Made by a program: the position numbers and the translations under genes. From Odiellus spinosus (lineage: Eukaryota; Arthropoda; Arachnida; Opiliones; Phalangiidae), in contig OY987237.1 of NCBI GenBank assembly GCA_963920705.1, positions 10,508,601 through 10,572,600 of the forward strand: a stretch of DNA of 64,000 nucleotides, written 5' to 3'. Shown piece after piece: positions 1,485-44,805 of the stretch; within the stretch, counting starts at the first letter, position 1; each line of letters opens with the position of its first letter. The notes beneath the pieces are model-generated. The model worked only from the letters and a program-made list of their open reading frames with translations, did not search any database and had not been told where the DNA came from.

Positions 1485-2321
1485 AACCGATACCTTGGCC
1501 AAAATTTATTATAAACAAGATGGGCGTGGGGCCACTGTAGTTACGCTTAAGTAATGTCGCGGTCCATTTTATTAGCAAGTGGGTTTTCAAAAAGAATTTA
1601 GAATATGAATGGACCTAATCGAGGTGGTTCAATGACAACTCTACTAGAGCGCCTAAATAGTATAAAAAAACTAAAAATATAATCCATAAGATTCGAAAAA
1701 AAATTGCTACAGCCTCACTTTAATCATTTTTCAAAAATGCATTTAGCTTAAACTAATTAGAACCAAAATCGTCTACTTTTATTCATTCAATAGATAAACA
1801 GAAAATTTAATTAACTTTTTTGATTTATATATATTATTATGTCATTATCTATTTTGCAACAACTTTCTCGAGAGAGAGAAAGAGAGAGAGAGAGATCTCT
1901 TTCAGAGTGAGAGTTCTCACTAATAAGAAGCAAATGTCGCTAACGGGGCTGCCGGATAATAGTCTTTAGTTTCAGATCGCTGCTTCAGAATCCAAAATTC
2001 CTTGGAACGCGGGGAATTGTAAGTAGTATATAACTTTTTTCTGATTTGTCACTTGGTATATATAGCCCATTACAATTGTTAATTTTTATTTTGGGGTTTT
2101 AACTCGCTCGGTTTTCTCAAAGCAATGCAGATATTGTATAGTAAAATATTGATATTGTATAATAATAAAAAAAATAAATAGACTTAAGGCGGCGGGCACA
2201 GTTTGAAAAGCGTAAACGTGAAATCACAACAATGAAACGAAGTAACTTAAACCCGATTTATGACGTTACAGACGCTTTTCAAAAATAATCCGTTGACTTT
2301 AATATAACAACAGGATTGGAT
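1485..2321. other. Non-coding stretch with a GA microsatellite
   Basis: A GA-rich microsatellite lies at 1870-1895. The rest is AT-rich sequence without a recognisable gene or repeat end. Confidence 0.7.
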
Positions 2322-2329
2322 TCCAGCAT

Positions 2330-2591
2330 CAGGGCCGGATTTATGGGTGGGGACCAGACTGGGCATCCGCCCACGGGCGCTAGCCATATGGGGGCGCCAA
2401 AGAAATCTGGTGATACTTTTAGAAAATCTTGACGTTATTGAATTTGAAATTTTTCTGGGCGCGAATCTATTGAGGGGGCGCGATGAATTCAAGTCTTTCC
2501 CCCGAGTGAAGGCGTGATGAATGATGGACTTTTAAATTTGGAGGCGCGTATAATTTTTGCCCCGGGCACCAAATCGATTAATCCGGCCCTG
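2330..2591. mobile_element. hAT-like non-autonomous element (262 bp)
   Basis: The ends are inverted: CAGGGCCGGATTTAT at the left and the complement of that pattern (AATCCGGCCCTG) at the right. An exact 8-bp target duplication, TCCAGCAT, flanks it at 2322-2329 and 2592-2599. CAG/CTG ends, a CGG-rich terminal repeat and an 8-bp duplication are hallmarks of hAT elements. There is no transposase, so it depends on a copy elsewhere. The intact duplication suggests a fairly recent insertion. Confidence 0.88.
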
Positions 2592-2599
2592 TCCAGCAT

Positions 2600-3216
2600 A
2601 GGAACTACAGCATAAAAATTATGCTTCAGGGTCAAGTTCTAAAGTGATAAAATACCGTCAATACGCCTTTGAAGTATATACATAGTTTTCAGTAAAGGGG
2701 CAAAAGAAAATTCCACCAATCTTACCGGCCCAGCTTTGATTTCATTGCCAGGTTGCCAGTTCAGAACAGATCAGTTTCAAAACTGAACTGCTAGCCTTTC
2801 CCTCTGCACTCACAAGTGGTTGGCAACAAGGGGGGAACGGTACTTACCCCTTTAGTGAAAATTATGTATAGGATATAAATCCACGTTAGCCTCTCAATTT
2901 AAAATTCCCAGGGCTCTCAATTTAAAACTGACCTATCATATAAACGGGTGGACTAGCGTATGGCTGTTATTCGCCGCGTTCGCATTAGAGTAATTGGTGC
3001 CGCGTCGAAAATTATGTATCTTCATATTTTCTTAAATGAAATTCGCTTCATTTTCATAACTTATTACAAGAAGGGTATTTACACTTTACAAAGTAATAAC
3101 GAATATTAAGTAAATTAGAAACATATTGTTTGCAAATAAAAAAAAAAACCTATAGAACAATGTTTTAAATTCAATTAGAAATTTTTAAATAGGCTTTTCC
3201 TTTCAGTCATGCTCTG
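2600..3216. other. Non-coding stretch
   Basis: AT-rich with a slightly GC-richer patch around 2690-2850. I see no gene, element end or tandem repeat. Confidence 0.6.
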
Positions 3217-3219
3217 TAA

Positions 3220-3397
3220 AGGCCCGTTTACAAAAGAGCGGAAAGCTTAAGCGTAAGCCGATGCATGGAACAATAACAAGAGGAGGCATAGGTTCCAAAA
3301 TCTCATTTTTAAACGATGTATGAACCTATGCCTCCTGTTGTTATTGCTCCATGCATCAGATTACGCTTCAGCTTTACACTCTTTTGTAAATGGACCT
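3220..3397. mobile_element. Palindromic PIF/Harbinger-like MITE (178 bp)
   Basis: Nearly the whole element folds into one hairpin: arms of about 78 nt around a short loop near 3305. The ends are AGGCCCGTTTAC and the complement of AGGTCCATTTAC. It is flanked by TAA at 3217-3219 and 3398-3400, the TWA target duplication expected of PIF/Harbinger. No coding capacity. The superfamily is inferred from ends and duplication only. Confidence 0.75.
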
Positions 3398-3754
3398 TAA
3401 ATGTTATTACACTTGAAGTTACAACGATAAAATAATCATATAATATAGTTGGAAGCATTAGTAAAGCTATAACTTTCCTTTTCGTTATCTATGTGGTTTT
3501 ACTTAGATATGTAAAATGATCAATAGAATACAAAACTTCGTTTTCGAAGGAAATTGGATACTCGTAAAGTATAGTTAAATAAAAGAAAAACATATTCTGA
3601 GATTTACTATTTAATCGTGATATTTCCACGCGTAAGTGATACGTACTCAGAATATTCAAGATGAACGAAACAATCTACAATTTGACAGCAGTTTTCATAA
3701 ATGTGAGAAAATTTACAAAACTCGCGTTTAATTGAAGGCATTAAAGTTTATTAA

Positions 3755-4242
3755 ATTTAAACTTGGAGTTAAAAATGGAACAGCTTTTGAATTTATTTTC
3801 GGAATCACCGTACCAACTAACGTATTAGAGAATTTTTTCACAATTTCTAGACACTTTTTTCGTGTTTAAATTTATTTCTAAAGTTGGGTTAAGTTTTAAT
3901 GTAAGTAAATATAAACTCAGTCCAAGTATATTATTTCAGCCTTCAACAGTGCTTGTTATATCCTAACGTTAAAATGGCGTTTGACTCCCAAGGTCTTGAG
4001 CATCAAACAACAGAGTATTCTTTTAATGTTAGGTCATTACAAGCGCCGTTGAAGGCTGAAATAATATGATTGGCCCGAATTTATATTTTTTTTTTTTTTT
4101 CAAATTTTACGAAACTTAAGAAATCAATTTAAATACCAAAAAAGTGTCTAATATTGTTGGAAAATACTCTAATAAGTTTTTAGGCACGGTAATTCCGAAA
4201 ATAAATTCAAAAGTTGTTCCATTTTTAGCTCCAAGATTCACT
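3755..4242. mobile_element. Family A foldback MITE, copy 1 (TTAA-flanked)
   Basis: Long inverted repeat whose arms share the segments ACTTGGAG, GAATTTATTTTCGGAAT and CCTTCAAC. TTAA lies at both borders (3751-3754 and 4243-4246). The terminal AGGG of other copies is mutated here. The arms extend into the middle, so most of the 488 bp can form a stem. Other copies lie at 33859, 36701, 36792 and 58670. piggyBac and Kolobok transposases both use TTAA; the sequence does not decide between them. Confidence 0.85.
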
Positions 4243-4803
4243 TTAAGCGACGAAAATGAATGTTAAAACGACTTTTTTTCGCAGAAAACTGCCGCACCTT
4301 GGGAGCAACCCTTTTACGCGTTTGACAGAATGAGTTATTACATTTTTGAAAACCACAAACGTCTCAGGTATGAACTTAGTGGAAATACAAAAAGTTCCCA
4401 CTCGTTCGAAATTCCATTTGTAGCGCTTGAAACCTTGGTTGGCGCAAAAAAATGTTTTTTTCAACCATGTAGTAGTCTCGGAAATTTAATTTAATAGTAT
4501 TATAAATGAATTAACACGATCAATAAGGTTTGTGTAAAGATATCACTATTCCGAGCTGAAAATTTGGTTGAAAATTTGCATTTCCTTTCAACAATAACTA
4601 AACTTGCATAATTTTTTGTATTTTAAAGATTGATCATTATGAAAGAGGATGGGGTAAATCTTTAAAATGATAATGGAGACGAGTGACGTGTTATTTTTAA
4701 TCGATTAGAAGAGTAGATATATATATTGAAACAGTAATAAACGTCTAGGATCAGACCTTGCCTCTACCAGTAGAAAACACTTTCTTAAAGACAAGTGATA
4801 TAG

Positions 4804-4979
4804 CTAGCCTTAAAATATATTCATTTTTATTGGCCAACGAAAAAAGGTTTCGGTTTAGAAGGAAAGGGTGTTCTATCGTTTTTGCTTTTAGCTACTCTAC
4901 TGAGCGCTGTATCCGAGTTAGATAAAGCTGGTTTTTCACTGGGCGGAAAATCCGCAAAATTTTGTCATTCACGAGAGAT
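4804..4979 (+). pseudogene. Possible relic of an IR last exon (M4-like frame)
   Basis: An open frame follows a TAG at 4801 and ends at TAA 4977-4979. It contains KKGFG and then a hydrophobic run GVLSFLLLATLLSAVSE. The last exon of the receptor gene just downstream has KGFG directly before its last membrane helix and a Glu at the helix end, so this could be the tail of a decayed tandem copy. I found no matching upstream exons, and a frame of this length is expected by chance in this DNA. It could equally be random sequence. Confidence 0.2.
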
Positions 4980-5279
4980 ATAATTTTTTTACAGGTTAGG
5001 CGCTAATCGCGTTTTAAAATTTATCCAGGCTTTAATTACGAGTGTTTCTCAGAAATCAATTTTGATATAAATTGGAATTTTACTCTATTTTTAAGATTAT
5101 GAGCAACATTTCACCGCCATGGCGGTTTTAAAAATTTTTTCACGCTTATTTTCTTGAACCGTTTTCCACTAACGCGATTTTGACAAAAATAAATTACAGT
5201 GATAATTCAGCTTAATAACGTTACGAAGTTTCGCTACAGGGGTCGCGGGCAGCAAGAAATGTTGTTGATATATTTCTAG

Positions 5280-5498
5280 TACCCCCACACGCTCAATCAT
5301 AATGGAGATATCAACACATATTTAGTTTCTTATGGCAACGATGCAGAGTTATTAAATAAACATAATATACCAATCGCCAATATTACCTACTCAACAACGG
5401 CGATGTTTTCGTTTCACGCAATTGTATCTGCTAAAAAGGAAAAGGTTGCTTACGAATCACCAGGAGCTTTTGAAGAATTTCAAAATTTACCCTACCAA
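5280..5498 (+). CDS. IR-like gene, exon encoding the end of S1
   Basis: 73 codons in phase 0. The acceptor follows a pyrimidine-rich TATTTCTAG ending at 5279, and the same frame is closed by that TAG, so the exon must start by splicing. The donor is CAA|GTAAGT at 5499. It ends PYQ, followed directly by the Ile-Trp that opens M1 in the next exon, as in IRs where S1 runs into M1. Confidence 0.78.
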
Positions 5499-7560
5499 GT
5501 AAGTTTTATTCGGGGGTTAATCACTTTCGTAAAATTTGTACCTCGACTACGCGATTACGTAACTGACTACAGCTAATGGCAATCAATTATCAGTTTTATC
5601 CGAAGAGTAAATGACACCCTTTCCTAAAAGCTATGGTATAAAATGCTAGATACACGAATTCGCATCCGTGTTCGAGAAGAACGGGGTTGGGATGTAGAAA
5701 TATTTCAGGAATTGGAATTTTGTACTCTAGCCCCGGGTTGGATGGAGAGAATAAGTCATACGGGTCGACGGGCCAATACCAAGCTCCGGTTACTATCGAT
5801 ATAGTTACAGTTTTCACCCAACTTTTAAAGTCTACGGGGAGGGTGCAAACTTTTGAGGATATTGGTCGCTGTAAAGACGCCTTCGTGTGAAAACAGTCAT
5901 TTCTACAAAATATATTTAGGGGTGTGTTTATAAGGCAACTTTTATTATTTCGAGAAAGAGCATTCATAATTTCTTTAAATATTTGCAGATTTGGATAATG
6001 ATATTCGTTTCTTATCTTTTATTAACAACAATTGGAATTATCGAAAAAAGAATGAATGGAATTCCGAACAATGTTTTTGTTTGTGCCTCTAAAAACCTGT
6101 TTCTTTACTTCGGAACCATCTTGGGAAAAGGTAATAATAAAAAACTGCTCGCATATTTCTCTTGAAGAAGAGAACAGCCATCGCAATGCATAATCCAGGC
6201 CTATTAATAATGGACACTTGGAGGCTCTAAGACTCGCCAGACGCCAGCGCGTTTTTGTTAGTTACTACTAATTTAAGCCCCAATTTCAATCAACGTTTTT
6301 CAAGCTTTTGCTTTCGCCTTTCCGAGGGAAGCTTATATTAAATTAATTTTGATACACATCAAATTCATTTTGCTATTCATAATTCTCTGTCACTTGAAGC
6401 CTGTTAACGTGTGATAAACGAAACGCTTCATTTAACCTTTAACTTTAACACTTGATTCTTAAGCCTAAAACTATTTAGACAATGCTCATGAAAGTCTGAT
6501 TTCCTTGTTTCTCTCGCCTTATTGCGATAAAGGTCCATTGCTAAGTTACAGATTATTTTAAAAAGTCAAAACTTGACGAAAGTAGTTCTGCCACTGTATG
6601 AAAAAGTAGTTTTTTCTTCCGCAAAGGTTTCAATATTCCATCATTGAGTGCTATCAGAATCTGCGTGGGTGTCTGGCTTCTGCAACTCGTGGTTCTCTTA
6701 AACTTGTTTAGCGGGGTCATGAAAGCCAATCAAATCAATCAAGGGACAACTAATATCAACTCCATAGAAGATTTTTTACGAACCCGAAATCTTGTCGTGG
6801 TTCATTTGTTTACGAAGGAATTTTGTCGATCGGTAAAAAAAATTTGAAAACTAACGACTGATTAAATCAGAAAATTATTGGGCATTTGGTTATAGAATTT
6901 TCTTCATTTGGGCAATTTTATTTCAGAGTGAAAAAAAGGTCACACATTTCTGCAAAAGATTTTGTCCGAATAACGAGCCAAAGAACCGTAAATTTGTCTA
7001 TTTCGTGAATACTGCCTTTGCAATAATTTTCCATTTGACTGCAAAAGAGTATAACTTCATTAAAGATTTTCACTTCGGTTCCAGCAAATACAATTATAAA
7101 CCAGCGGTGTACATGATCAAGAACACCGTTCATCCCGAAGCTCTTAAACTCATTAATAAAAGGTTGGGATTTTCAGACTGAAAGACGAATATTTTCCTTA
7201 AAACGAGAGTGTCACTAGAAATCACTGACAATAATATTTAATTACAATTTTTAATGGAGCTAGTAACTAAGTAAATTAGGCTTGAACTAACAATCGCGTT
7301 CTAATATAACATTTTATCGCCATTGCAGAGTTGCTTCTTTTTTCGAAACAAGTCAATTTATCCCTACGTTTCGTTACGTTGAAATGTTATTTGAGGCCGA
7401 TTCCGAAAATACCAAAATGGAAAAAGAATTTCGAAAAATTGAAATGAAAGGATTTGGAACCATGTTCGCCTTGTGGTCCGCCCTTCTCAGCGTTATTTCT
7501 GTCGTAACCATTGTTGAAATAATTATTAACCGCGATTTATACGATACATCAATCGTCTAA
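5280..7560 (+). CDS. Ionotropic receptor (IR)-like channel, C-terminal five exons
   Basis: Five exons (5280-5498, 5989-6130, 6627-6832, 6927-7162, 7329-7560) join in one uninterrupted frame of 344 codons plus stop, with GT-AG introns in phases 0, 1, 0 and 2. The product matches the ionotropic-receptor channel core of protostomes. Residues 1-73 are the end of ligand lobe S1. Helix M1 is at 74-92, a pore-loop-like stretch LFLYFGTILGKG at 110-121, M3 at about 130-154 (starts IRICVGVWLL, then LFSG), ligand lobe S2 at about 155-311, and M4 at 312-334 ending in a conserved-looking Glu. Such receptors sit in the plasma membrane, usually of chemosensory neurons, and conduct cations when bound by ligand. 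The 5' exons (signal peptide and most of S1) are not identified; a start codon is missing. No exact subfamily or ligand can be given. Confidence 0.85.
5596..5967 (-). other. Unexplained antisense open frame inside the first visible IR intron
   Basis: 123 codons are open on the minus strand, entirely within the 5499-5988 intron. The stretch 5650-5890 is GC-richer than its surroundings, and a + strand frame is open there too. The peptide (for example NPGLEYKIPIPE) is not recognised. It may be an exon of a nested gene, a captured fragment or chance. Confidence 0.25.
5989..6130 (+). CDS. IR-like gene, M1 and pore exon
   Basis: The acceptor is TTTGCAG ending at 5988 and the donor AAAAG|GTAATA. 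It encodes M1 (IWIMIFVSYLLLTTIGIIE) and the pore-loop start. The last codon is split after one base and completes to Gly with the next exon, giving LGKGFN, close to the usual LLGQG-type IR pore segment. Confidence 0.85.
6627..6832 (+). CDS. IR-like gene, M3 exon
   Basis: The acceptor is CCGCAAAG ending at 6626 and the donor TCG|GTAAAA. It encodes RICVGVWLLQLVVLLNLFSG (M3). The canonical SYTANLAAF of glutamate receptors is replaced by NLFSGVMKA, which is typical of divergent IRs. The S2 start INSIEDFL follows, matching the common pattern of M3 followed by an 'I.siedL' segment. Confidence 0.85.
6927..7162 (+). CDS. IR-like gene, S2 exon
   Basis: The acceptor is TTTATTTCAG ending at 6926. The donor AG|GTTGGG at 7163 is weaker, but it is the one that keeps frame and completes an Arg codon with the last exon. 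It encodes much of the second ligand-binding lobe, including KPAVYMIKNTVHPEALKLI. If unspliced, the frame would stop at TGA 7179-7181. Confidence 0.75.
7329..7560 (+). CDS. IR-like gene, last exon with M4
   Basis: The acceptor is CATTGCAG ending at 7328; the stop is TAA 7558-7560. It encodes the end of S2 and M4 (GTMFALWSALLSVISVVTIV), with a short 10-residue cytoplasmic tail. The short tail after M4 is usual in IRs. Confidence 0.85.
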
Positions 7561-7612
7561 ACCATATATTTGACATTCAGGCTTAACTTAACTGTAAAGT
7601 ATCCAATTATCT

Positions 7613-7618
7613 AATAAA
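7613..7618 (+). promoter_or_regulatory. Probable polyadenylation signal of the IR-like gene
   Basis: Canonical AATAAA 53 nt after the stop codon. The spacing suits a short 3' UTR. No other hexamer lies closer to the stop. Confidence 0.5.
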
Positions 7619-10427
7619 TACCAATCTGCTCAAATACGTTTCATTTATGAAAATCAATGTAGGTAGTTACACTTTCCCAAAAAGCGAAATTACGAATATC
7701 AAGAGAAGTAATTTTCGGGGTCAAAATACTTCTTTGGTCGTTTATTACTCCTTTAAAGGATTGCATAAGCGTCTAAAAACATAAACCCAATTGTGGTTAA
7801 ATTGAGTAACATAACGGGAAAATTAAGGGGAAATTAAATGAATTAAATTACGTTTTTATATTTTTAAAGTTATGCCCAAGATTTATTAACAAGTTTAAGC
7901 AATTCCGGGTAGTACCAATGACCTAAACAAATTTTTCCGCTCATTTTAAAGTCGATCGTTTGGCATAAAGCGAAAATTCAATGGTATAATTTTAATATGA
8001 TATTTTACCCCATAAAAACTGAGTTTTTATCTATTCCACTCTGCGTATATAGCAAGGTTTCAGAAATATGGGATTTATACAGGCATTTAAATCCAGCACC
8101 TCTTTCGACTTTCGCCCCGCCACGTCAAACGGATCGAACCTAAAGGGACTAAAAGCGCGCAACATGATTGATCATTTATATTTCTCGCGAAGTATACTTT
8201 GCGCTATTTAATGTGGACGAGAAGGAAAAATATTACAATTTTGGATCAGAATTACTATTATAATAATACCATATAAAGTGTTTCTTGAAACTACGTACAA
8301 ATAATATTGCATTAAATTTCAATCGTAGCTACAAAATGAGACAAGTTACGTCGAAATCGGCCATATTACGCCCACTTTTCAATCATGAATTTTGGGCAAA
8401 AAAATCTATTTTTCGTCGTAAGATTTTCTAACGAACTTCAAATTTATACTTTCGTAAGATATTTTTCATTTTTATGAGACAAATTTATTTAATCAATAAA
8501 ATAAACGTACGTACGTAACGTTATATCAAAAATTTCTAATTGCCAACTTTTTCCCCGATCTGAAACTGACAGCGCGAAGAAGTCTTAAAACCTTCATTAC
8601 GTTCCTTTACAGCAATAATAAATCTATAGATTCGAACAAAACCTCTTTCAAAGACGTAGAAGGAGACCAAATTCTTCCGGAGGGGCGCGTTACAAGCAGT
8701 TGGTCTCATCATTCCCCCTCCCAAACTCGTCTTCACGCACCTTCCCAATTCCCGGTATACCGTTCTCTCCCCAGCTTATATTCTTATATCCTCCACAAAT
8801 TTTTACCGGTAAAGTGGACATCAGCGCTCATCTCGTGCGTAAGAGAGCGTCTTTCCCGTCATAACTTTCATCCCTGGCCGCTTTCCCTCCTTCTCTCGCT
8901 ATATCTTCACATACATCCCAGATAAGAGACTCGGATAGAGCTAGGCAACGTCAACGCTAGCTACGCCTAACCTCATTCCAGCTTCATCTATAGGAGGATA
9001 TACAGAGGGAGAAACTAGACTAAAAGGATATCAGTATACCGAGAAGGGAAAAAAGGGAAAGGAAAAGGGGAAAGACTAAAATTTTTAAGACGAAAAGTAA
9101 GCATTGGCGGGGATCTAATCCAAACCCAGAAATATCCTACCCTATACCTCGACGAAGATGAGTTTTCACATATTTTAATCAAAAATTCGTAACTTATTGA
9201 ATAAAACCAAATATGGCGTGCGGAACCGTTGATTTACAGACACTCAAGCTGCTATATCAAAATAAAAAGTTCAAACTCTTCGAAAATTTCTTTAGTAGGG
9301 AGGGAGCCTACGAAGCGGTTTGAAAGTGTCTATAATTATTTAACGTAGGTCAATTATACTGAAGCGCCATGAAAACGCTGCTTAACGCTATAAAAACGAT
9401 TGCTTTTGAAAAAAAGACTTATTCACACGCTATTTCCTTACTCTCTATATCCCTCTCGTCACCACTACAATATCTAGGTCTTTTTCGTCCATTCTGGGAT
9501 TTAAATAAGGCGACGCTCGAGTTAATTTACGAATACGACCGTATTATAAAAGTGGATTCCCGCGCAAATTAGATAAGGGCCTGGTGTTCCCCCAAATCCC
9601 TTAAAATGGCAAGTTTCTAGATTTTTCCAATTTTAATAAAATTAAAATTTAAAAAAATCTTTTATTATTTGAACGTGGCAAAAATGGACGAGATTATCAG
9701 GGGAGATTTATAATATCGACAGCGTGTTTTATGAAGCAATTTAACAAGGTAATTTTTAAGTATATTATATATCATAAAAGCTGGCTATGGGCTCTTTCAA
9801 AGTGCAAGCGTTTATCCATTATCTTGGTCCGCATATAAAATAAATCATTGATAAAGGCTATTACTCGAAAAGACTCGATTGTTTTGGAAATTGAGTGAAA
9901 TTTTTATAAAAATGATTTTGAGCCAATTCGAAATGTACCACTGCGTTTAAATTTAATCATTAGATAATTACGATGATAAAGTTTAAGATTAATCGCCAAA
10001 TAGTAGTCAGGTTGGTCAAAAATCTTGAGAAATTGAATTATAATGGCTTAAATTTTCTTTAAATTTTTGTATTCTAAGCAAAGGTTTTTGGACTTATTTG
10101 AAAAGTTCCAATTTACGTATAAAAATATTGCATACCGGATTAAAAACCGGATTAAGAACCAGATTATGTATATTAAGCTTGAAGAAAATAATAAAATAAT
10201 AGTGGTCCTTTCAATATTAATTATTTTTGAAAAGTTAAATTTGGGGTTTAGATATCCATAGAAGACTATTTGCGGTCTAAAAATCTAGTGCCCAACTTAA
10301 TATTTCTTTATTTTCTAAAATGGGAGATTTTTGATACTAAGTTGTGGTTAAAAGGCATTTATAGTTTTCTAATTACATTAACAGGGTAGTTGAAAATTGT
10401 CACGACCAGCAAACAACGATGCGTCCA

Positions 10428-10463
<36 letters not shown>

Positions 10464-10934
10464 AAGGGTAAAATGAATAGGTCAGACTAAGAATGTTCAG
10501 TCCATTGTAATTAACGGCACGATTTCCTTCAGCAGAAATAAAGTTATCGCGCGGGTTTTAAGTAAAGATACGCGTGACGTCACGTAACCCCTATTACCCG
10601 TGTTATCAAAGATACGTGAATGTGTTTAAATTAGAGGATAATTTTTTCCCCAACAAAGCAAAAGATTCGCTGGGGAAAATTCTTTCGTTATAGGCTTATA
10701 GAGTGTTAATTTTTATGGTCGTTACCATGGAGATTTTCTTCTAAGAGATTAAAAATGCGGTTAACGCCGTTGGCAATTACCTATATACAAGTTATAATGT
10801 TATACATTTTTACAACATTTCTTAGTAGAAACAAGTAAAGGCAACTCTGAGGGATTATTCAATACACCTGAAATAAAATTAAGAATTTTCTAAGAGCGTA
10901 ATAATTAATATTAGCTCATTTCGTGTCAGGCGGT
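7619..10934. other. Non-coding stretch with a 33-nt poly(A) run
   Basis: AT-rich and without a recognised gene. A run of 33 A lies at 10429-10461. It could be a retroposon tail, but I find no target duplication or body for one. A 67-codon frame at 9369-9572 has no recognisable features. Confidence 0.5.
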
Positions 10935-10938
10935 TGAA

Positions 10939-11358
10939 AGGGAGAATGCAAACCTAACAAAAGATTTTGTATCGATTCCTTATTATTTAAATATGCCTAT
11001 TCCACGAACAAATATTAAACTAGAAATAAATTTAAAACTTACCCGGAAAATAGGTTTAGCGAGATTCATGAAGATCCTGATTTCCTCGCGTATAGTCTAG
11101 CGACCAATCGAACGTGATTGTAAGTCTTGTGGAGATTTCGCGTGAACGACTGGCCTTTGCTCATTGGTCGCTAGACCTAGCTTACAAGGAGGCAATTCAG
11201 GATCTCCATGAATCCCGCTAAGCCTATTTCCCGGGTAAGTTTTAAATTTATTTCTAGTTTAATATTTGTTTTTTAAAATTTTTATTGGTGGATTAGGCCT
11301 ATTTTAAACGATAAAGAATCGATAAAAAAATCACTTGTTATTAGGTTGCATTCTCCCT
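10939..11358. mobile_element. Family B palindromic MITE, copy 1 (420 bp)
   Basis: The ends are AGGGAGAATGCAA and its complement; the left flank is TGAA and the right flank TTAA, so the left target copy is mutated by one base. The arms share CTAGAAATAAATTTAAAACT and GGTCGCTAGAC and make almost the whole element one hairpin. The short centre, which includes CGCGTGAACGAC, is not palindromic and shows orientation. Confidence 0.88.
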
Positions 11359-11362
11359 TTAA

Positions 11363-14178
11363 TAGGCCTAATCTTAAAACTGTTGTCACATCCTCACATA
11401 AAGGTCATGATATGGGTCACATTAGTCTATTATAATGTCAATTATAGGCGAAACACACATGCTCATGATCTTCAAAGTTTCCCAAACATATAAAAATGTG
11501 GAAAACGTTGAACAACTGACGGGAAGATTATTTTACATTGTTCAATTCCAAACGGATACAAATAAAAAGAACTAACTTTTATAGGTTCATCAGTTGAGAA
11601 ATGTACCGAAATTTTCTTACTAGAGGTAAACTTTGCCCGTTTAGTAAAAACTCGAAATATTTTAGTCAAACAAATTTCCACGAAGTCATTTGTTTTGAGC
11701 GATTTTACGTGCGGACAAGCCCGAGGGGTCCTTATAGTCGTTAGGCTTAGAGAAAGCCGGAGCCCCACGAAAATAACGGAGCTCTGGAAAAGATAATTCC
11801 AGGCTACTTTTGACAAACGATACATTTTTAACGGGTTTATACGTTAAGGAGAGGAAGAAGAAGAACAAGAAAAAACGCGCATTCTCAAGAACAAGAAGAA
11901 AATGCAAGAACACACACCCCGCCACTCCGGCACGCTTAATAGAATTTTATGTCAGCCCCTTCTTATCATAAACTGGAAGAAACCCTTTCTTACTTAAGAT
12001 GCCTTTACACATGCGTTTAATCACTGATAGAACGTTCAAAAATGAATGCCAAAAGCTGATTTACATATCGAAAGATATTCAGTGTGGGTTTAAAGGCGAT
12101 AAAATCTGCGAAACCAATTTCATAGATTAGTTTTATTTCTGGGCTCAAGATTTTCGTTAATGACAATTAAAAGATTTAACATAAAATAAAGAACAACTTA
12201 AGATTTTAATGCAAAAATGTTAAGACTAAAGAATGACTAAAGATTAAAATAATGAGAAATATCTTGTTCAAACGCCAACCTCTTATATGTTTTGAATTAT
12301 ACTTGTCATATTACATTACTTTATAGAGCCAATAACTTTAAAGAATTCCCATCTAAGCTAGGTTATCTAGCCATCTTTGACACGCATTGCAAATGTTAAG
12401 GCACCTTTGCGCTTCTTCAAGAGGCGTACGCATAATGCAGAGAGGCAAAAAAAGAAAAAAAAATGAAAAATTCAAACTTCTCTTTTTGTTTCCGGGTTTG
12501 AATTTTTTTTACGTTTTATAAGTTTAGAGACGTTGAAAAACGAACGGTAGAAATATGAAAACCTAAACCCAGTGATGCATAACGCAAACCGTATTTTTTC
12601 CTGCAACTTTCTATTGGGGGGTCAAAGGCGTGAAACTATAGGTAAGTTTTCACTGAGAAAAATACGTTTTAAAAATTGTACCAATTGCTAGTACAGGAAT
12701 GGTTTGAATCACTTGTATGTTATCGAGAGTATACACGCTCTTTTTCTACGTAGCTAACGAGGTGAATGTTCAACTACGTTGTTAAAAATTCATTATATTA
12801 ACTGGATTGAAAGAATGTGTTTGCTCGAAGGATTCCTCAAAAAAATTCTCATTAAATATAAAAACTTAAATAATGCTGGATATATTATTGAATACGTTTA
12901 ATTATTTAGCTGTTTTTTTTTAAGAAAAACAAAGCTCTTGAAAAAAAAATTGATTTTATCATTGAATATACGTTTATTAATGTACGGACACGATTAATTT
13001 CGTAACTCTTAAACGGCGCACCGTACGACAAAACGTCATAGAACATTTTCGTCTTAAAATGTCCCATAGAACCCTATAGCTCGGTCCTACCACTTCGAAA
13101 CACACTGTATATTTACTTGAAAATCAAATTACCCTATCTTTGCGCGTCATGTCTACACGCTACCTGAAACTGTAATAGACTTCCCGTTTAAGTTCTTACT
13201 TTCCAACTAAAAGCCAATTTAGTCTGGCGTTCTTAACCAGTGAAAAATCAACTTCAATGCTTTAAGTTCGTCGGCGTGAAAAGGTTGCATGCAAAAGAAG
13301 AAATATCTATAAAGGCATATAGTGATAGCGCGTAATCTAGTATCCGAATCTAAATGACGTAAAAATGTTACAATAAATTACCGCTAGGGGGATCTAAAAA
13401 GGAGGGGAAGGGGGGAAAAGGTCTCCGAGTGGCGAGTAACGCGTAAGCGAGAAGAACTTGATGGAATAACATCGATTTTCTAGGTTTTAGAAGCCCAAAA
13501 AGGAGGAAAATATATACAGTATTCGTCCAGTATACTTGGTGGATAGAAACAGTGATCAATCTTACGTGAGAAAAAAAAAAAAGACTTTCCCTCCCACTCG
13601 CTACTACTCTACTAGTTTTTGGTTCCCGCCAAGAAAACAAAAAAGTAAAAGAATATAAAAGCGCGGGAAATTCGATAGCTAGAGCCTTTGATTTGCCAAC
13701 ACGCGCTATCCGTTTAACAAAGACTCCCCTTCAAATTTTAATTAGAAGAAGAACGAAGTTTCTAGACCACATAGTGAGTTCCTTAAATAGGAAGGATATG
13801 TCAAGCAGTTTCAAACATTGCAGCTAGGTGCCAAGAGTTTAAAAAAATCACGACCTTGAATATAATTCGTTTTCTTGATTTATTTTAAATACATTTTAAC
13901 AGCAAGCCTAAATTAGTAGCAACAATAATTTTGAATTATAATAGTTTTCATTTGTATTACAATAATATCTCATAATGAAAAAACTTATGGACCGCCATTT
14001 CATAATTTGACTTTACGCTTAGAAGATAGAAATATGAATCAATCAGGAAATTTACAATTTTATTTGTGGTCATCGGTTTTTAAAACAACGTTTCCCGTTT
14101 CAACGTGTGTCAGAGAAGTTTTTTCTATTAAAAAACTAACCTAACCCTGTCTCATGATAACGCGTATAGAAACTTCCA
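11363..14178. other. Non-coding stretch
   Basis: Low-complexity A/T tracts at about 12450-12500 and 12910-12950, and a pyrimidine/purine-rich segment at 13370-13640. No gene recognised. Confidence 0.5.
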
Positions 14179-14182
14179 TTAA

Positions 14183-14618
14183 AGGGAGGATGCAACCTAA
14201 CAACAAGTGATTTTTTTATCGATTCCTTATTGTTTAAATAGGCCTAATCCACTATTTAAAAAATTTACAAACAAATATTAAACTAGAAATAAATTTAAAA
14301 CTTACCCTGAAAATAGGCTTAGTGGGATTCATGGAGCTCCTGATTTCCTCGCGTGTAAGGTCTAGCGACCAATCGCGCGCGACGTAAGTCTCGTGGAGAT
14401 CTCGCGTGAACGACGGGCCTTTGCTCATTGGTCGCTAGACCTTACACGGACGCGATTCAGGATCTCCATGAATCCCGCTAAGAATATTTTCAAGGTAAGT
14501 TTTAAATTCATTTCTAGTTTAATATTTGTATTGTAAACTTTTTATCGGTGGATTAGGCCTATTTAAACGATAAGGAATCGATAAAAAAAATCACTTGTAA
14601 TTAGGTTGCATTCTCCCT
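14183..14618. mobile_element. Family B MITE, copy 2
   Basis: The best preserved copy: AGGGAGGATGCAACC at the left, the matching complement at the right, and exact TTAA on both sides (14179-14182 and 14619-14622). Same loop orientation as copy 1. Confidence 0.9.
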
Positions 14619-14996
14619 TTAAAGCGCTCTTATACCTACATACCTAAATGATAAGGTATGTCCCGCACCTTCGCAAAAATTAATGAAATCTAGATACGAA
14701 AATTCAAGCGATTTGCTAGAATTCCGAGGAAGACTCCAATAAAAGCCTATAAAATTTATAAATGCGCTAACACTCCGAATATACCTATATTACTAATGTA
14801 CCAAAACTAAATTATATAAAATCATCACTCATTTACTCTGTAGGGAGAGTTATGGCTGGAATCAAAACGGAAAAACTTAGGCCTGAAATATAATAGAACA
14901 AACTGAAGAGATAAAGGAGTACTTTTACGAGTATACTTTTAGAGACCAGAATATGTTACACTAGGCATACAAGAACAAAACCGCGAGTGGGTGAAG

Positions 14997-19096: not shown

Positions 19097-19656
19097 CTCC
19101 TCGCTCCACCAACGAAACGTCCTTAGTGAGACACATATTGGAGATCGATCCATAAATATTACCCGCTTTGGCATAATTGAAAATTATCCATTTTACCCTT
19201 CTTCGTTCTCAATTTAGGCATTTATTGATCTCTTCTTAAGGCTTTCAGTGATTATCTTGAAGGCAAAAATTAAAATCGAGAAGGAGACGGTGGAGACCTG
19301 TACTTTAAACATATACCACCCTGTTCCAAGCGCGTGCGGTTAAAGTATAGATTGGAAAAGGTATATGGTTGAGAAACCTCGTGTTTTAACGACTATAGTT
19401 TGCATGAGAGCTAGCCTTTTAGAATATACGCAGCATTGTAGTTCAGTATTATAATTTAAACATAAGAATGTATTACGAGAGTGATCCGATTATACGCTTG
19501 CGGTGGGCCTTGTGCATTACGTGGTTCGCGATAATTGGATGAATGTAATTCCCCAAGAATTTTAGGTGTAGTATCAAAGACCTTTCACACAAGAAATAAT
19601 TTAAAGAAGCTTAAAAGTAGAAAAGACCTCGGAGTTAGGAGGCGCTAAAGGCTTAA

Positions 19657-20083
19657 AGGGAGAATGCAACCTGATTTTTTTAATCGATTCCCCATCCTTT
19701 AAATAGCCCTAAACCACTGGTGAAAAGATTTACGAACAAATATTAAACTAGAAATAAATTTAAAACTTACCAGGAAAATAGGCTTAGCGGGATTCATGGA
19801 GATCTTAATTTATTCGTGTAGAAGGTCTAGCGACCAATCGATCTTGATTGTAAGTCTCGTGGAGATCTCGCGTGAACGACGGGCCTTTGCTCATTGCTCG
19901 CTAGACCTAAAACGGAGGCAATTCAGGATCTCCATGAATCCGGCTAAGCCTATTTTCAGGGTAAGTTTTAAATTTATTTCTAGTTAAATATTTGTTTTAC
20001 AAACTTATTGTTGGTGGATAAGGCCTATTTAAACGATAAGGAATCGATAAAAAAATCATTTGTTATTAGGTTGCATTCTGCCT
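19657..20083. mobile_element. Family B MITE, copy 3
   Basis: TTAA lies on both sides (19653-19656 and 20084-20087). The left end is AGGGAGAATGCAACC and the right end has one change (CTGCCT). Part of the left arm is deleted after GCAACC. Loop orientation is as in copies 1 and 2. Confidence 0.88.
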
Positions 20084-20087
20084 TTAA

Positions 20088-22757
20088 AGTTAGAAAAGTA
20101 CTCAAATTGGAATTAACCAAAGTAGGAATAAGGCTAATTATAAACCCTTTCTATGAATCGGTTGTGTTGGAATAATTGTAGTAGATGAGATTCGATTAAG
20201 ACGAGCAATGAAAAACAGTCACTAATAGAACTGGCCTAAGAAGAAATATGACTAAAAACCCTTTCTAGCAGTTTGTGCTCCAGGTTTGTATGAACCTTAC
20301 ATTTTCTTCCCACTATGTTGTTTTAAATTTTAGGACTCCGCCAAGAGATATATAGTCTATGCATCTCTATTTTAATAATTTTCTCTTGTATCCTCTTTTA
20401 ATTAACTCCTGAAACTGTTAATATAAGCTCGTCCCTGACTTAGAAGGAATTTTGAGCTAATAAATATGCATTCTATCATATATTCGAAATGGCGTACCTT
20501 AGAAAAGGCAATATGAAGCCAAAACCTCAAATAAAAATACGTCACTCATAAGTTGAACTAGCAACGCGTTAAACTTCCGAGATAACATCAAAATTAGGTT
20601 TTTAATATTTTTCCTTTCATCCCAAATGGGGAGTGAAAATAAAAGAAGAAAAATGGCGAAAAAATGGCAGGGTAAATTTTGGGTGTAGCCCTAACGAGAT
20701 TATAGTTTTAATTACCCGTGATTGAAGGCCGCCATAAACGGTGGCGTGACCAATAATACTTAATAAGAAATTCTATTTCCTCATCCACCCCCTTCTTTAT
20801 TCCTCTCACTAGCTGCGTTGGACTAACAAAAAAACATACTAGATGAACACCGCGAAACTCGGAAACTGCCAATTTAGTGCAGACTATACAGTTTCCCCAA
20901 AATCCCCTCTTTTAAAGTACGAGTCTTACGAAATACAATAAAACTAACTGAAAATTTTAGTATAACCGTATTTACTTTTGTGTTTATATTAAAAAGTACC
21001 ATAAGCGACACATTTTAAAATGACAAGATCATAAATAAACAAAGGTCTAAATCATATTTAACCGAGGTTTAATTGAACTGAGAAGGCGAAGTACGTAAAC
21101 TTAAGTTAAACATGATTAAACCGGCTAATTACGCCTCGTCTGAAGAGGGTATAAGGGTCACGTTTTTTGTTTAAAGCGTCGATATTATATAAAGAAATAA
21201 AGGACTAAATTAACGATTGTTCACTACAGTCTTGCCCTTTAACGTAAGCCATCGATGTTAGTAGGCTTAGTAGGTAGCACGTGTGCAAGATTAGAGTCCT
21301 TACACGAACTTTAAGCTCAATTAATGAATGCGCGTTAGGGATGAAAGCGAAAAATGGTACGAGAGCGATTGGGAAATCACCCGCACTCGAGTCTTCTACT
21401 ACATTGAGCCTCTTCGCGTGGATATAGATTAGTATAGCAAGTGAGTTAAAGCTATAATGGGAGGCCGTACCTCAATGGAGAGATGTTATAGGCCTCGTGG
21501 TCAGTACAAATTTATAGCCTTAGACGTCGTTTTATGGAAAGGAATGCCAGTATAAGTTCTCGGCCATCAGGAGTACAATGACTTCTCTATAATATATTAA
21601 GCCGTAAAACAACGGAAGGACGGGGATTTTAATAATATACTTTAACTATTATATATCGACAATTATCAGAGGTTTATGAGCATTAGTTTGATTTCATGAG
21701 TATAATCAAGCTCGAAATCAATCTTAGATTATTGGTTGTTTAGGAAAAGATATTAATTCATCCGATAAATACATTTTTAATTATTAGAATTCTAGCTACG
21801 CCTATACTTTCCGAAATCTACACCTTATCAGAACGAACATAGGAGTAAAATGTCTTGACAAAAACATGGTGCCTCTAGAAAGGCTAGAGGGATAGGCGCG
21901 CTTGGGGTTTACCCTAGATGCGCAGTTGTGTAGGCGCAAATTATCCCTAATGCTTACTCGATAGGACGCCTACGGAATTAGAATTTTGAAAGGGTATCGT
22001 TAGTTTAAATCGGTCAATCTCGGATAATTCTGGAACAGGAAAGGATGACAGAATAAAAGGTGTGAAAGCCGACTCGAGCCAGTTTTACCATGACGTAAAT
22101 ACTTAAGTTTCCTGACAGAGTTACGCTACTTTTCAAGAAGAAATTATGAGCTTTTGATAATATACGACCAATATAATTTTATCGAGAAAAAATCGAACGA
22201 ATATAAATTAAAAATACACAGTATGTTATTATTTTTCAGTTACCCCTTTTGACAATGGAATTAAACTTTCCCGCTGGCTATTATCCTTGATAAAACTAAT
22301 TATAGGTAAAACTTCTCGGAATCTTTATCCCTTCTCGGGGGGTTATATAGCGTAAAACTTTTGGATTGCTTTTAAAAACTATACAAGGCCAGCGTTCCAT
22401 TTGAAAGCAATCGTTGAGGCCCCGCGTCACGCGCCCTTTAATTTATTGGCGGCAGGGAGCAATTTATTATCCGAAATTGAATCAAACGTTTGTTCCCCTT
22501 GTACTTCTCCTACAGCTATACTATTGCATTATTCCTTCGGAGTCAAGGCGAGAGAAGAGGGGAACGGTTTTGGGTCCGATATCGGATAAAGGGTCAAGCC
22601 ACCTTTTTCTTTCGTTTCCCGGGATAACAGATCTCAAAACCAACCACTCCCTAAATAATAGCCTTCATACAAAGGTTTCTTGTACTTTTTGGGTCACTAA
22701 TCGCGTATTGTTAGTTATATAGTAAATATTGGTTTCAAATATGAGTAACTAATTTTA
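20088..22757. other. Non-coding stretch
   Basis: No recognisable exon, element end or tandem repeat. Overlapping + frames at 22401-22722 are not family-like. Confidence 0.5.
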
Positions 22758-22810
22758 AAACATTATAGAATATACAGTATAATCCCTTCAAAATGTATAG
22801 GATATTATAA

Positions 22811-23590
22811 AATGTCCCTCAAAGTCACAGAATACAATACAATGCCCCTCAAAGTCACAGGATACTATACAATGCCCCTCAAAGTCACAGGATACTATAC
22901 AATGCCCCTCAAAGTCACAGGATACTATACAATGCCCCTCAAAGTCACAGGATACTATACAATGCCCCTCAAAGTCACAGGATACTATACAATGCCCCTC
23001 AAAGTCACAGGATACTATACAATGCCCCTCAAAGTCACAGGATACTATACAATGCCCCTCAAAGTCACAGGATACTATACAATGCCCCTCAAAGTCACAG
23101 GATACTATACAATGCCCCTCAAAGTCACAGGATACTATACAAGGCCCCTCAAAGTCACAGGATACTATACAATGCCCCTCAAAGTCACAGGATACTATAC
23201 AATGCCCCTCAAAGTCACAGGATACTATACAATGCCCCTCAAAGTCACAGGATACTATACAATGCCCCTCAAAGTCACAGGATACTATACAATGCCCCTC
23301 AAAGTCACAGGATACTATACAATGCCCCTCAAAGTCACAGGATACTATACAATGCCCCTCAAAGTCACAGGATACTATACAATGCCCCTCAAAGTCACAG
23401 GATACTATACAATGCCCCTCAAAGTCACAGGATACTATACAATGCCCCTCAAAGTCACAGGATACTATACAATGCCCCTCAAAGTCACAGGATACTATAC
23501 AATGCCCCTCAAAGTCACAGGATACTATACAATGCCCCTCAAAGTCACAAGATACTATACAATTATCCTCAAAGTCACAAGATACTATAC
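22811..23590. repeat. 30-bp minisatellite, 26 units
   Basis: The unit CCCCTCAAAGTCACAGGATA plus CTATACAATG is repeated with almost no variation (first and last units diverged; one AAGG variant at 23141). Because 30 divides by three, a frame with a decapeptide repeat (MPLKVTGYYT) stays open for 275 codons. It is best read as a by-product: no splice or start context, and the rest of the array shows no codon-type conservation. Confidence 0.97.
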
Positions 23591-23592
23591 AC

Positions 23593-24144
23593 GTTATAAA
23601 ATCCCCTCAAAGTCACGTTATAAAATCCCCTCAAAGTAACGTTATAAAATCCCCTCAAAGTCACGTTATAAAATCCCCTCAAAGTCACGTTATAAAATCC
23701 CCTCAAAGTCACGTTATAAAATCCCCTCAAAGTCACGTTATAAAATCCCCTCAAAGTCACGTTATAAAATCCCCTCAAAGTCACGTTATAAAATCCCCTC
23801 AAAGTCACGTTATAAAATCCCCTCAAAGTCACGTTATAAAATCCCCTCAAAGTCACGTTATAAAATCCCCTCAAAGTCACGTTATAAAATCCCCTCAAAG
23901 TCACGTTATAAAATCCCCTCAAAGTCACGTTATAAAATCCCCTCAAAGTCACGTTATAAAATCCCCTCAAAGTCACGTTATAAAATCCCCTCAAAGTCAC
24001 GTTATAAAATCCCCTCAAAGTCACGTTATAAAATCCCCTCAAAGTCACGTTATAAAATCCCCTCAAAGTCACGTTATAAAATCCCCTCAAAGTCACGTTA
24101 TAAAATCCCCTCAAAGTCACGTTATAAAATCCCTTCAAAGTCAC
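23593..24144. repeat. 24-bp minisatellite, exactly 23 units
   Basis: The unit GTTATAAAATCCCCTCAAAG plus TCAC shares the 14-mer CCCCTCAAAGTCAC with the neighbouring 30-bp array. It is nearly invariant (one AGTAAC variant, last unit CCCTTC). A minus-strand frame with an octapeptide repeat (VTLRGFYN) results from the unit length. Confidence 0.97.
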
Positions 24145-24179: not shown

Positions 24180-27160
24180 TAAAAATGATCAATATGTATA
24201 TCGGATTTTGTGTTCGATCCCTCGACTAGAAGTTTCTATACCTTCGCGGTATTTTTAAAGTCACACATATCATTCGTTGTACTTATCATTACAGTTCCAT
24301 ATACTATTAAGAAATAGCTTTCCTGAATTTTTTAGTAAGCAATATTCTTGGAATTAGTCTAAAATACTACGAAGTGGTTGGTCTGTGAGCGGACATATCG
24401 CTGTACAGCGCGGGTAGAAGGAAACAGAGGGATGTCCGAATCCAAATTAATTTCCTAGCCGTGTCATGGCAGGGGCGCGTTTGTCCGATTCCTATTCAAT
24501 ACAAGCTAGGGGTTCTAGTTAGCCTGACCAGGGCGGACTAGACCTGCGTCAAATAGTGTACGATATATAGCCTGATGCGTGGTTCTACAAGGTATTATTG
24601 AATACTTCCTATATGTTGGGGAGAAAAACTGTGGGTTTGTACCCTGATTAAGGGGTTGGTTTCCGTCGTATCAAGACTACTTTCTATAGTTATTTTTACC
24701 CATAGTAAGGTTGTTATATTTTACGTAACACAAAAATGGTCCTTCATCTAGAGTTGTACTTGATAAGAGGCAATACAATACAGTCAAGAAGATAGGAAAA
24801 TGGATGCTCAAAAAAGGTGATTCTAATCTGATATCATCCGAAAAAACTTCAATTTTAAGCTCCAGCTTATAAAAGGGCCCTTCTTTTCGACGTCACGAAT
24901 ATTTTAGAAGTCTTGCTTAATAAATTAAAAATAAATCTGGTGCTTCATAATTTAAATTTTAAGTCCAATAATCTAAATAATATAGTAAAATTTATCGGAG
25001 GGGTTTACAGGAAGTCGAGGGGTTAGCCGCGCGATTACGTAGACTTTGGTCATGTACTCAGTTTACCCAATTCAATTTTGCAGACTCGTACACCGATTAC
25101 GTGGAACTATCAGCCCATCGGACGAGGTTAGTTCTAGAAATATTTTCAGTTCTTCTTAGATTGCTAACTGTAGTATATATTTCTAAAATAAGTAGAAATT
25201 TCAGTGGGCACAAAGCTTCACTCCCTGTTGAACTATGACTATTGGCTTAGAAATAGAGTGAAACGTAGCTTCGTCAAGATTGATATCTTTCACTGACTCC
25301 CATTATTTATAAATATAGGTATTGGCGTGGCCCCATTTGATATTTTTCAAGGTTCTTCCGCTAGAGTAGAGCGCGACGGAAGTGCTAAGCATTTCAAATG
25401 GAATCGCTAAACACCGGAAACGGCTCCTTTAAACGCTCCCTATTTTATTGGGTGTAACTTCCGCTATTTATAACTTAATGCTTATAAAATCTAGGTTTGC
25501 CATTCGGTTTCGATTATGTCGCGGTTGATTTTGGGGATATTTCTGACACGTTGAAATTGTTTTACGATGAAAGAAATTTTTCTAATTGATGTATCTTTGA
25601 ATAGAATTTCATTATAAGGAAATTAAAGGGCATTAAAATAATCTGGTAATACTTAATTGAGGTCGAGGTTGATGAAATTATAATTCGTTCGCGCAGGGCG
25701 AGATGCCAAATAAATTCGGGCGTTTAAATCACTCCCCATGTGTACTATGATAAAGAAACTTAAGTATACAGTACCAAAGCCAAAAGGGGCGCACCCAGAG
25801 TATTTTCCTTGGCCGATAACTAAACACTACATGCTTAATAATTAAATGTTTTGTTTCCAAATTATCTCGTGATAAAGCTATTTAAGGTAACCATGTTCAA
25901 AGTTAATTCCCTCCATCGGTTCAATTTAGAATGTCATATACAATACCTCGAATGAAAAATATTTAAACAAGAGGGTGTGAACATAAACTACAAGGTGGAA
26001 AATCGAGGCTAAAGAAGGTCGTAGTTGAAGGGTCAAAACTCCAAATCTTCCGCCTCTCTTTTTCCTTCTATACTATCCTAGATATCAACTAAGAGAGTTC
26101 TCCGCGCGATGGGCGTGTTAGTCAATGCTCTCGGCGTGTTGTTGGACATGACAATCGCTGGCCAAAAATCGTTAATCAAACGGAGCTTCTTCTGAGAAGG
26201 GCAGTTGCAATCACAAATGTCCGACTTCGAACGGAATGGTCAAATTGGCCCTTTTGTTTAATTGTACACTCGCGAAAAGGAACTTCCCGAGCGTTAAGAT
26301 TGAACCTTTTACGACCTCCATCTTAAACTCCCTTCTGTGTGTATATATATATTTATATATTGCTTTTGAAGAGAAGTTTGCCATACTACTTTACCTTCTA
26401 TGAGGTTTAACATTCGGTGCTAATATACGCATTGAATTTTCCTAATTTCTAAAACTCATCTTGAAAGTACAGTCAGCATTAACTTAAGCGAGATTGTAAA
26501 AATCACCCTAAATGTACTAGAAGTTCAGGATTAACCCAAATAAAAACTGTCCCCCCTTAAAAGTAGCAGCTGCCTTAATACCTTCAAAATTTCCACTTCA
26601 GTAGCAAGATTTAACACTTAAAATATTCCTACTCAAAATACAGTACAGTAAAGTCGCACTTTCAAAATTTACCTCGTACAACGCGTTTTACACGAGTAAT
26701 GGTAACTAACCACTTCAAACACTCCTCAAAAAACAAAAGTATGCCCTTTCATAAATTCATAGTATTTTCAAAAACGGAGAAACGTTTTTGATCAAAAACA
26801 CAAAAAGAAAAAAAAAGGACTCACACGTATCTGCGATGTTAAATCCAATATCCAAGAATGTGCCGCAATCTTGATATCCACATCCTAAATCACATGACAT
26901 CCGGATTCAAAGTACGCAAATGAGAATCTACACTGTAATCGTTTTTGACGCATTGGCCTCGTATGCAGGCTTCCCGAGACTCTCTCGTGTTAGGCCGCTC
27001 CAATGACGTCGGTCACTAGTAGACCTATCCTCGACGATATCACCATATCACCCGCAATTCCAAGTTTCTGTTTGGAAGAGTTGAAAAAAATAAATAAACC
27101 TCATTAAAAATAAGTTAAAGAGTGGAATTTATCACACACCTAAAAGCAGATTAGTTTTCA
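24180..27160. other. Stretch apart from the candidate at 25.1-25.6 kb
   Basis: A short imperfect hairpin lies at 25333-25412 (arms near CCATTTGAT and TTTCAAATGG). Otherwise no gene or element is seen. Confidence 0.45.
25084..25589 (+). other. Candidate two-exon gene end (unrecognised)
   Basis: A 43-nt exon (25084-25126; acceptor TTTTGCAG, donor GAG|GTTAGT) and a second exon 25495-25589 (acceptor AAATCTAG, stop TGA 25587-25589) join in frame. The second part reads LPFGFDYVAVDFGDISDTLK. The splice sites are plausible and phases agree, but the coding length is only 45 codons and another phase choice for the first exon is possible. No family recognised. Confidence 0.25.
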
Positions 27161-27164
27161 TGGA

Positions 27165-27540
27165 CAATGTAATCTTACAACAAGTGATTTTTTATCAATT
27201 CATAGGCTTAAATAGGCCTTTGCCTAATCCAATATTAAAAAAATTACAAACAAACATTGAACTAGAGATAAATTTAAAACTTTACAGAAAAATAGGCTTA
27301 GGAGGTCCCTAATTTCGTCGCATTGATGGGTCATTTACCAATGAGCATAGGCCAGTCGTTAAGGCGAGACTTCCACTAACATTCGATTGGTCGATGACCC
27401 TTCAATGCGAAGAAATTCAGAATCTCCATATATTCAGCTAAGCTTATTTTTCCGTCAAGTTTTAAATTTATTTCTAGTTTAATATTGGTTTGTAATTTTT
27501 TTACTGGTGGACTAGGCATATTTAGACGATAAAAGAAATG
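27165..27540. mobile_element. Family B MITE, copy 4 (eroded ends)
   Basis: Diverged copy lacking the terminal AGGG at both ends. The diagnostic segments AACAAGTGATTTTT, CTAGAGATAAATTTAAAACT and TTTATTTCTAGTTTAATATT remain. The centre is in the opposite orientation to copies 1-3. An A-rich tract with interspersed T follows at 27580-27620. Confidence 0.8.
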
Positions 27541-30232: not shown

Positions 30233-30995
30233 GTGGGTTTCAGTTCTCTTAGAATAGTGTCCGTGGTATCAGTTCGAATTGAATATTCCCAGTGGGTTTT
30301 CAGTTCAAATAGACTAATCCACGTGGGTTTTCAGTTCGAATAGACTAATACTCGTGGGTTTTCAGTTCGAATAGACTAATACTCGTGGGTTTTCAGTTCG
30401 AATAGACTAATACTCGTGGGTTTTCAGTTCAAATAGACTAATACTCGTGGGTTTTCAGTTCGAATAGACTAATACTCGTGGGTTTTCAGTTCGAATAGAC
30501 TAATACTCGTGGGTTTTCAGTTCGAATAGACTAATACTCGTGGGTTTTCAGTTCGAATAGACTAATACTCGTGGGTTTTCAGTTCAAATAGACTAATACT
30601 CGTGGGTTTTCAGTTCAAATAGACTAATACTCGTGGGTTTTCAGTTCGAATAGACTAATACTTGTGGGTTTTCAGTTCGAATAGACTAATACTCATGGGT
30701 TTTCAGTTCGAATAGACTAATACTCGTGGGTTTTCAGTTCGAATAGACTAATCCCCGTGGGTTTTCAGTTCGAATAGACTAATCCCCGTGGGTTTTCAGT
30801 TCGAATAGACTAATACTTGTGGGTTTTCAGTTCGAATAGACTAATACTCATGGGTTTTCAGTTCGAATAGACTAATACTCGTGGGTTTTCAGTTCGAATA
30901 GACTAATCCCCGTGGGTTTTCAGTTCGAATAGACTAATCCCCGTGGGTTTTCAGTTCGAATAGACTAATCCCCGTGGGTTTCAGTTCGATGAACG
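30233..30995. repeat. 31-bp minisatellite with higher-order structure
   Basis: About 24 units of GTGGGTTTTCAGTTCGAATA plus GACTAATACTC. Unit variants differ at the last four bases and the last G/A. A five-unit pattern (CTTG, CTCA, CTCG, CCCC, CCCC) occurs twice in a row from about 30660 to 30955, a 155-bp higher-order repeat. The left border units are degenerate. Confidence 0.96.
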
Positions 30996-33858: not shown

Positions 33859-34328
33859 AGGAAAACTTGGAGCTAAATTTATTTTTCGAATCACCATGCC
33901 AACAAAACATATTCGATAATTTTTTTCAATTTTTAGACACGTTTTTTGAGTTTAAATTAATTTCTAAAGTTTGGTAGACTTTGGATAAAAGTAGATATAA
34001 ATTCGGGCCAATCATATTATTTCAGCATTCAATAGCGCTTGTAAAATCCTAAAATTTAAAGAATAGGCTGGGGTTAGACGCCTATGGTCTTGACCATGTA
34101 ACGCAGACCTATTCTCTTAATGTTACGACATTACAAGCGCTGTTGAAGGCTGAAATAATATGATTGGTCCGAATTTATATATCCTAAAATTCGAAATACC
34201 AAACTTGATAAATTTAAACACCAAAAAGGTGCCAAAATATTGTGAAAAAATTCTCGAATACGTTTTTAGGCATGGTGATTCCGAACATAAATTCAAAAGT
34301 CGTTCCATTTTTAGCTTAAAGTTTCTCT
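33859..34328. mobile_element. Family A foldback MITE, copy 2
   Basis: TTAA lies at 33855-33858 and 34329-34332. The left end is AGGAAAACTTGGAGC; the right end is eroded by an insertion near AGCTTAAAG. Long inverted arms carry the GGCTGAAATAATATGATTGG segment also present in copies 1 and 3. Confidence 0.85.
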
Positions 34329-34332
34329 TTAA

Positions 34333-35625: not shown

Positions 35626-36050
35626 AATAACAATGCAACAAGTGATTTTTCATTGATTCCTTATCGTTTAAATAGGCCTAATACACCAATAAAAAGTTTA
35701 CAAAACAAATATTAAACTAGAAATTTAAAACTTACCCGGAAATAGGATTAGTGGGATTCATGGAGATCCTGAATATCCTCCGTGTAAGGTCTAGCGACCA
35801 ATGAGCAAAGGCTCGTCGTTTACGCGAGATCTCCACGAGACTTACAATCGCGTTCGATTGGTCGCTAAACTTTATACGAGAGGAAATCAGGATCTCCATG
35901 AATCCCGCTAAGCCAATTTTCCGGGTAAGTTTTAAATTTATTTCTAGTTTAATATTTGTTCGTAATGTTTTTCACTATATAGTGGATTAGGCATATTTAA
36001 ACAATAAGGAATCGATAAAAAAATACTAGTTGTTAGATTGCATTGTCCCT
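35626..36050. mobile_element. Family B MITE, copy 5 (reverse orientation)
   Basis: TTAA lies at 35622-35625 and 36051-36054. The left terminus is eroded (AATAACAATGCAAC); the right ends GTCCCT. The non-palindromic centre is the reverse complement of that in copies 1-3, so the element is inserted in the other orientation. Confidence 0.85.
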
Positions 36051-44804: not shown

Positions 44805-44805
44805 T

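Follow-up and report, generated by a model that had tools for sequence, protein, structure and literature searches.

Does the segment between positions 5280 and 7560 of the analysed window (the whole 64,000-nucleotide stretch of DNA) encode a receptor, and to which branch of the glutamate receptor fold would it belong? Ionotropic receptors (IRs) form the branch of the ionotropic glutamate receptor (iGluR) fold that serves chemosensation in insects, and most of them, IR8a and IR25a being exceptions, lack the large amino-terminal domain. A preliminary description had read the segment as a divergent IR gene assembled from short exons. We consider this identity likely, with the qualification that the region would represent the 3' part of such a gene.

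Gene model and chance control

Five plus-strand exons, named A to E here, join in frame with phases 0, 1, 0 and 2, as the preliminary description had proposed. All of them lie at the proposed place with GT/AG borders throughout, and the spliced sequence of 1035 nt comprises 344 codons followed by a TAA stop, free of internal stops and frameshifts. Exon A (5280..5498) encodes residues 1-73, assigned by position to the second half of S1 and the segment preceding M1; it contains no arginine, and its residues 54-73 align with the AMPA receptor GluA2 ahead of M1. Exon B (5989..6130) carries M1 and the pore loop, and exon C (6627..6832) M3 and the start of S2. Exon D (6927..7162) is attributed to S2 by position and has no match of its own. 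Exon E (7329..7560) holds the end of S2 (again by position), a hydrophobic stretch taken as M4, and the stop codon at 7558-7560, shortly 3' of which lies a possible polyadenylation signal, AATAAA (7613..7618, plus strand).

The introns measure 490, 496, 94 and 166 nt. Their donors read GTAAGT, GTAATA, GTAAAA and GTTGGG, and the acceptors of exons A to E end in TTTCTAG, TTTGCAG, CGCAAAG, TTTCAG and TTGCAG. By eye, three of the four donors and four of the five acceptors are near consensus, the weak ones being GTTGGG at 7163 and CGCAAAG before 6627. Hydrophobic stretches of the joined product occupy residues 70-94 (M1), 121-154 (M3) and 308-339 (M4), in the expected order. Base composition carries little weight for or against coding (GC of 0.383, 0.310 and 0.380 by codon position versus 0.356 in the introns).

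How far would such an open chain arise by chance? Positions 5260-7600 were dinucleotide-shuffled 200 times; with a limit of five exons per chain, the longest open GT/AG chain averaged 788 nt (s.d. 111). Chains of at least 1035 nt, the length of the gene model, occurred in seven of the 200 shuffles, while the best real chain in the same interval, 1173 nt, was matched by one. The open five-exon chain alone is therefore modest evidence, only slightly beyond chance. Read as a fortuitous chain of open exons in the absence of any gene, the segment would be in keeping with these seven shuffles; what raises the gene model above chance is homology (the Lig_chan and GluA2 matches together with empty controls) and not the length of the chain.

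Homology of the joined product

The preliminary description had suggested searching the joined product against protein sequences and the Pfam models Lig_chan and Lig_chan-Glu_bd. Residues 73-290 of the 344-residue product match Lig_chan (PF00060) on profile positions 3-114 of 146 with E=3e-6 and 27.6 bits, which is significant although it falls short of the curated cut-off of 30.8 bits. Lig_chan-Glu_bd gave no match; of the ligand-binding domain, the second half of S1 is found and S2 is placed by position. In the PDB set, 79 distinct sequences have matches with E <= 10. The best 60 of these 79 all bear glutamate-receptor names, with AMPA type given wherever a number is included; the names speak for an iGluR, in a set that may hold no insect IR. 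Five matches reach E <= 0.01, three to GluA2 and two to AMPA-receptor mixes. The best one, to GluA2 (E=5.8e-5), covers residues 54-199 from the pre-M1 segment through M3 into S2 and spans three of the four exon junctions. Neither the reversed product (n=1) nor shuffled ones (n=3) matched any Pfam family.

The search against Lig_chan and protein sequences thus returned a glutamate-receptor match with clean controls, and the Lig_chan match to the channel core, with GluA2 in support, places the product in the iGluR superfamily. With homology at this level, a chance chain of exons becomes extremely improbable; it would demand E-values wrong by several orders of magnitude.

The signal of the receptor gene is distributed over its exons. 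Among the five single-exon ORFs, exon C with M3 is the only one to match Lig_chan by itself (16.5 bits, E=0.0076). The score rises to 22.4 bits for exons B and C (22.3 for A to C) and to 27.6 for all five, a growth on joining that is as expected for a true gene. Exons A and B alone, and likewise exons D and E alone, match no Pfam family. Against the PDB set, exons A and B match an unrelated leucine-rich-repeat protein (E=0.38) better than GluA2 (E=0.67), and the S2/M4 half draws three matches (E 1.2-1.8), none of them to a receptor. Two weak unrelated families are also drawn by exons B and C (E=0.037 and 0.039), and one of these by exons A to C (0.089).

In the alignment, the core of pre-M1 segment, M1, pore and M3 is homologous to GluA2. 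The complete channel core of M1, pore loop, M3, S2 and M4 that had been described accordingly holds in its first half, while the S2/M4 half is assigned by position and hydrophobicity only, that is by its place in the product, the hydrophobic segment 308-339 and the intact reading frame. On this combined footing, M1, the re-entrant pore loop, M3 and M4 follow one another in the order of the channel topology.

Missing 5' part and surroundings of the gene

The gene model is partial and lacks its 5' part, a point absent from the preliminary description. At the acceptor of exon A, the TAG forms an in-frame stop, and methionine first appears in frame at residue 42, well inside S1; upstream exons are therefore required. 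A start codon and the first half of S1 were not found in the window, which begins only 5.3 kb upstream. None of the 47 plus-strand ORFs of at least 24 aa in 1561-5279, an interval that leaves out the satellite at 35-1481, resembles an S1 or N-terminal exon (Pfam up to E=1); they draw five families, the best at E=0.013 and none of receptor kind. A candidate exon at about 4285-4367 has a good acceptor and donor by eye, but with its phase 2 end in the open frame it could not join exon A directly. Upstream of exon A lie a palindromic repeat (3743-4248), a foldback (3219-3398) and the tandem array at 35-1481 with a unit of 28 bases. Given these repeats, the first exons may be located outside the window or have been lost.

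The second of these outcomes leads to the main rival reading: a 5'-truncated remnant, left by an IR gene that lost its first exons or had them moved elsewhere, and from which no working receptor is made. It would account for the lack of a start codon and of an S1 exon upstream, for the palindromic repeat and foldback on that side, and for the weakness of one donor and one acceptor. However, decay would have spoiled the 344 codons early, and they run over five exons without stop or frameshift; the stop codon and the AATAAA are intact as well. Moreover, divergence can hide the N-terminal exons of receptor genes from detection, as stated for odorant receptors (PMC11302349), and only 5.3 kb of upstream sequence are at hand. 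We regard the remnant as rather unlikely, and favour a gene whose first exons lie further upstream.

Further receptor pieces were not recognised in the window. A possible paralogue at 10198-10290 (SIEDYLRSKNLV versus SIEDFLRTRNLV, tblastn E=0.23) was dismissed as chance, since 65 other 800-base chunks of the window give DNA-level scores up to 26, a range that includes its 25; the other tblastn matches that lie outside the gene all have E >= 1.8. The Pfam scan covered 150 ORFs, the five receptor exons and ten more, out of 179 ORFs of at least 58 aa outside tandem arrays. Lig_chan was not matched by any of the 150 at E up to 0.05, and of the 11 families that they drew, ten appear once each and weakly (E=0.006-0.043), which we ascribe to chance. 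The ten further ORFs, including all seven that overlap the gene on the other strand or in its introns, gave no match at E up to 1. NCBIfam yielded a single match (E=0.17), likewise taken as chance, and Rfam none at gathering scores. On the minus strand, the ORF at 51816-52157 matches the Pfam model Carb_anhydrase (E=1.7e-14, 54.5 bits) in a carbonic-anhydrase-type stretch and probably represents a single exon of a longer gene; in its sequence it may resemble the carbonic-anhydrase-related proteins.

The window is also populated by repeats. The long palindromic (foldback) repeat at 3743-4248 recurs in related form at 33876-34334 and 58657-59036, with a similarity of about 67-81% in the longer matches. 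A second dispersed palindromic family, with matches in both orientations and about 70-85% alike, is found at 10930-11365, 14178-14627, 19652-20089, 27148-27533, 35632-36057 and 40062-40479. Further tandem arrays are located at 22799-24144 (units of 30, then 24 bases), 30269-30989 (31 bases), 44795-45530 (32 bases) and 52707-53052 (24 bases). In the arrays near 22.8-24.2 kb and 52.7-53.1 kb several frames stay open for more than 100 and up to nearly 500 codons, apparently a side effect of units whose length is a multiple of three.

Probable kinship with divergent ionotropic receptors

The key residues bear on the kind of receptor encoded. In the GluA2 alignment, the gate motif SYTANLAA is represented by LFSGVMKA, with one of eight positions identical and a gap at the ninth. 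The replacement of SYTANLAAF noted in the preliminary description is thereby borne out, although its register is not: the counterpart given there, NLFSGVMKA, is off by one residue, the aligned one being LFSGVMKA plus the gap. At the pore tip, GKG stands in place of QQG. Beyond a gap of three residues, TKEF is retained where S2 begins. Glutamate receptors require an arginine in S1. Its GluA2 equivalent, R485, would presumably be expected near residues 33-34, counting back about 20 residues from the aligned stretch; the S1 piece found (residues 1-73) has no arginine, and the first half of S1 is absent from the model. Glutamate is thus unlikely as the ligand, judging by the S1 piece at hand. Loss of this glutamate-binding arginine is common, though not universal, among IRs. 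Among the IRs of one weevil, the residue is described as not well conserved (PMC4722740).

A conventional, synaptic-type iGluR subunit would agree with the names of the best 60 of the 79 PDB matches, drawn from a set in which insect IRs may be missing. However, most metazoan iGluRs are described as conserving SYTANLAAF well, with weaker conservation in one subfamily and some members of one class (PMC6307864), and here a single residue of SYTANLAA is kept. Together with the arginine-free S1 piece and the Lig_chan score under the cut-off, this makes such a subunit very improbable. The product remains alignable with GluA2 over the pre-M1 segment, M1, pore and M3 into S2, but differs from it in gate, pore tip and S1 piece. 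It is this divergence that makes an IR most likely in preference to an iGluR, and the gene would probably be chemosensory in role.

As far as it could be tested, the reading as a divergent IR is supported by the Lig_chan and GluA2 matches, and a score of 27.6 bits against a cut-off of 30.8 fits the term 'divergent'; it would also let automatic annotation miss the gene. Divergent IRs are characterised by Croset et al. 2010 (PMC2924276) as largely species-specific candidate gustatory receptors with identities down to 8.5%, and those of four ants are reported to comprise 13 subfamilies (PMC3431598). With insect divergent IRs the present product shares the iGluR-type order S1-M1-pore-M3-S2-M4 (S2 and M4 by position here), low similarity to known relatives, and an S1 piece lacking the arginine that varies among the IRs of the weevil. 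In contrast to them, its 5' part is not found, and its 3' part alone has at least four introns. In D. melanogaster most of the corresponding genes are described as single-exon, their few introns lying preferentially near the 5' end (PMC2924276); for one beetle, 0-3 introns are given (PMC11302349). The intron count is a mild mismatch and perhaps a matter of lineage.

We would picture the receptor as follows. The start and the remainder of S1 would come from further exons upstream, perhaps beyond the window. The protein may reside in the membrane of a sensory neurone as a tuning subunit, paired with IR25a, IR76b or a similar co-receptor, where a small water-soluble ligand bound between S1 and S2 would open a cation pore. 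Given the altered gate (LFSGVMKA) and pore tip (GKG), a member of an intron-rich divergent IR lineage might instead serve a receptor complex as a non-conducting or modulating subunit rather than form a cation channel of its own, which we think quite unlikely.

The result is of use to annotators of the genome concerned, and we see no wider consequence. It took the joined product, and not the single exons, to see the receptor (27.6 versus 16.5 bits). As a probable divergent IR, the locus would contribute a further, partial gene to a large and rapidly evolving receptor family, of which members are already known in large numbers.
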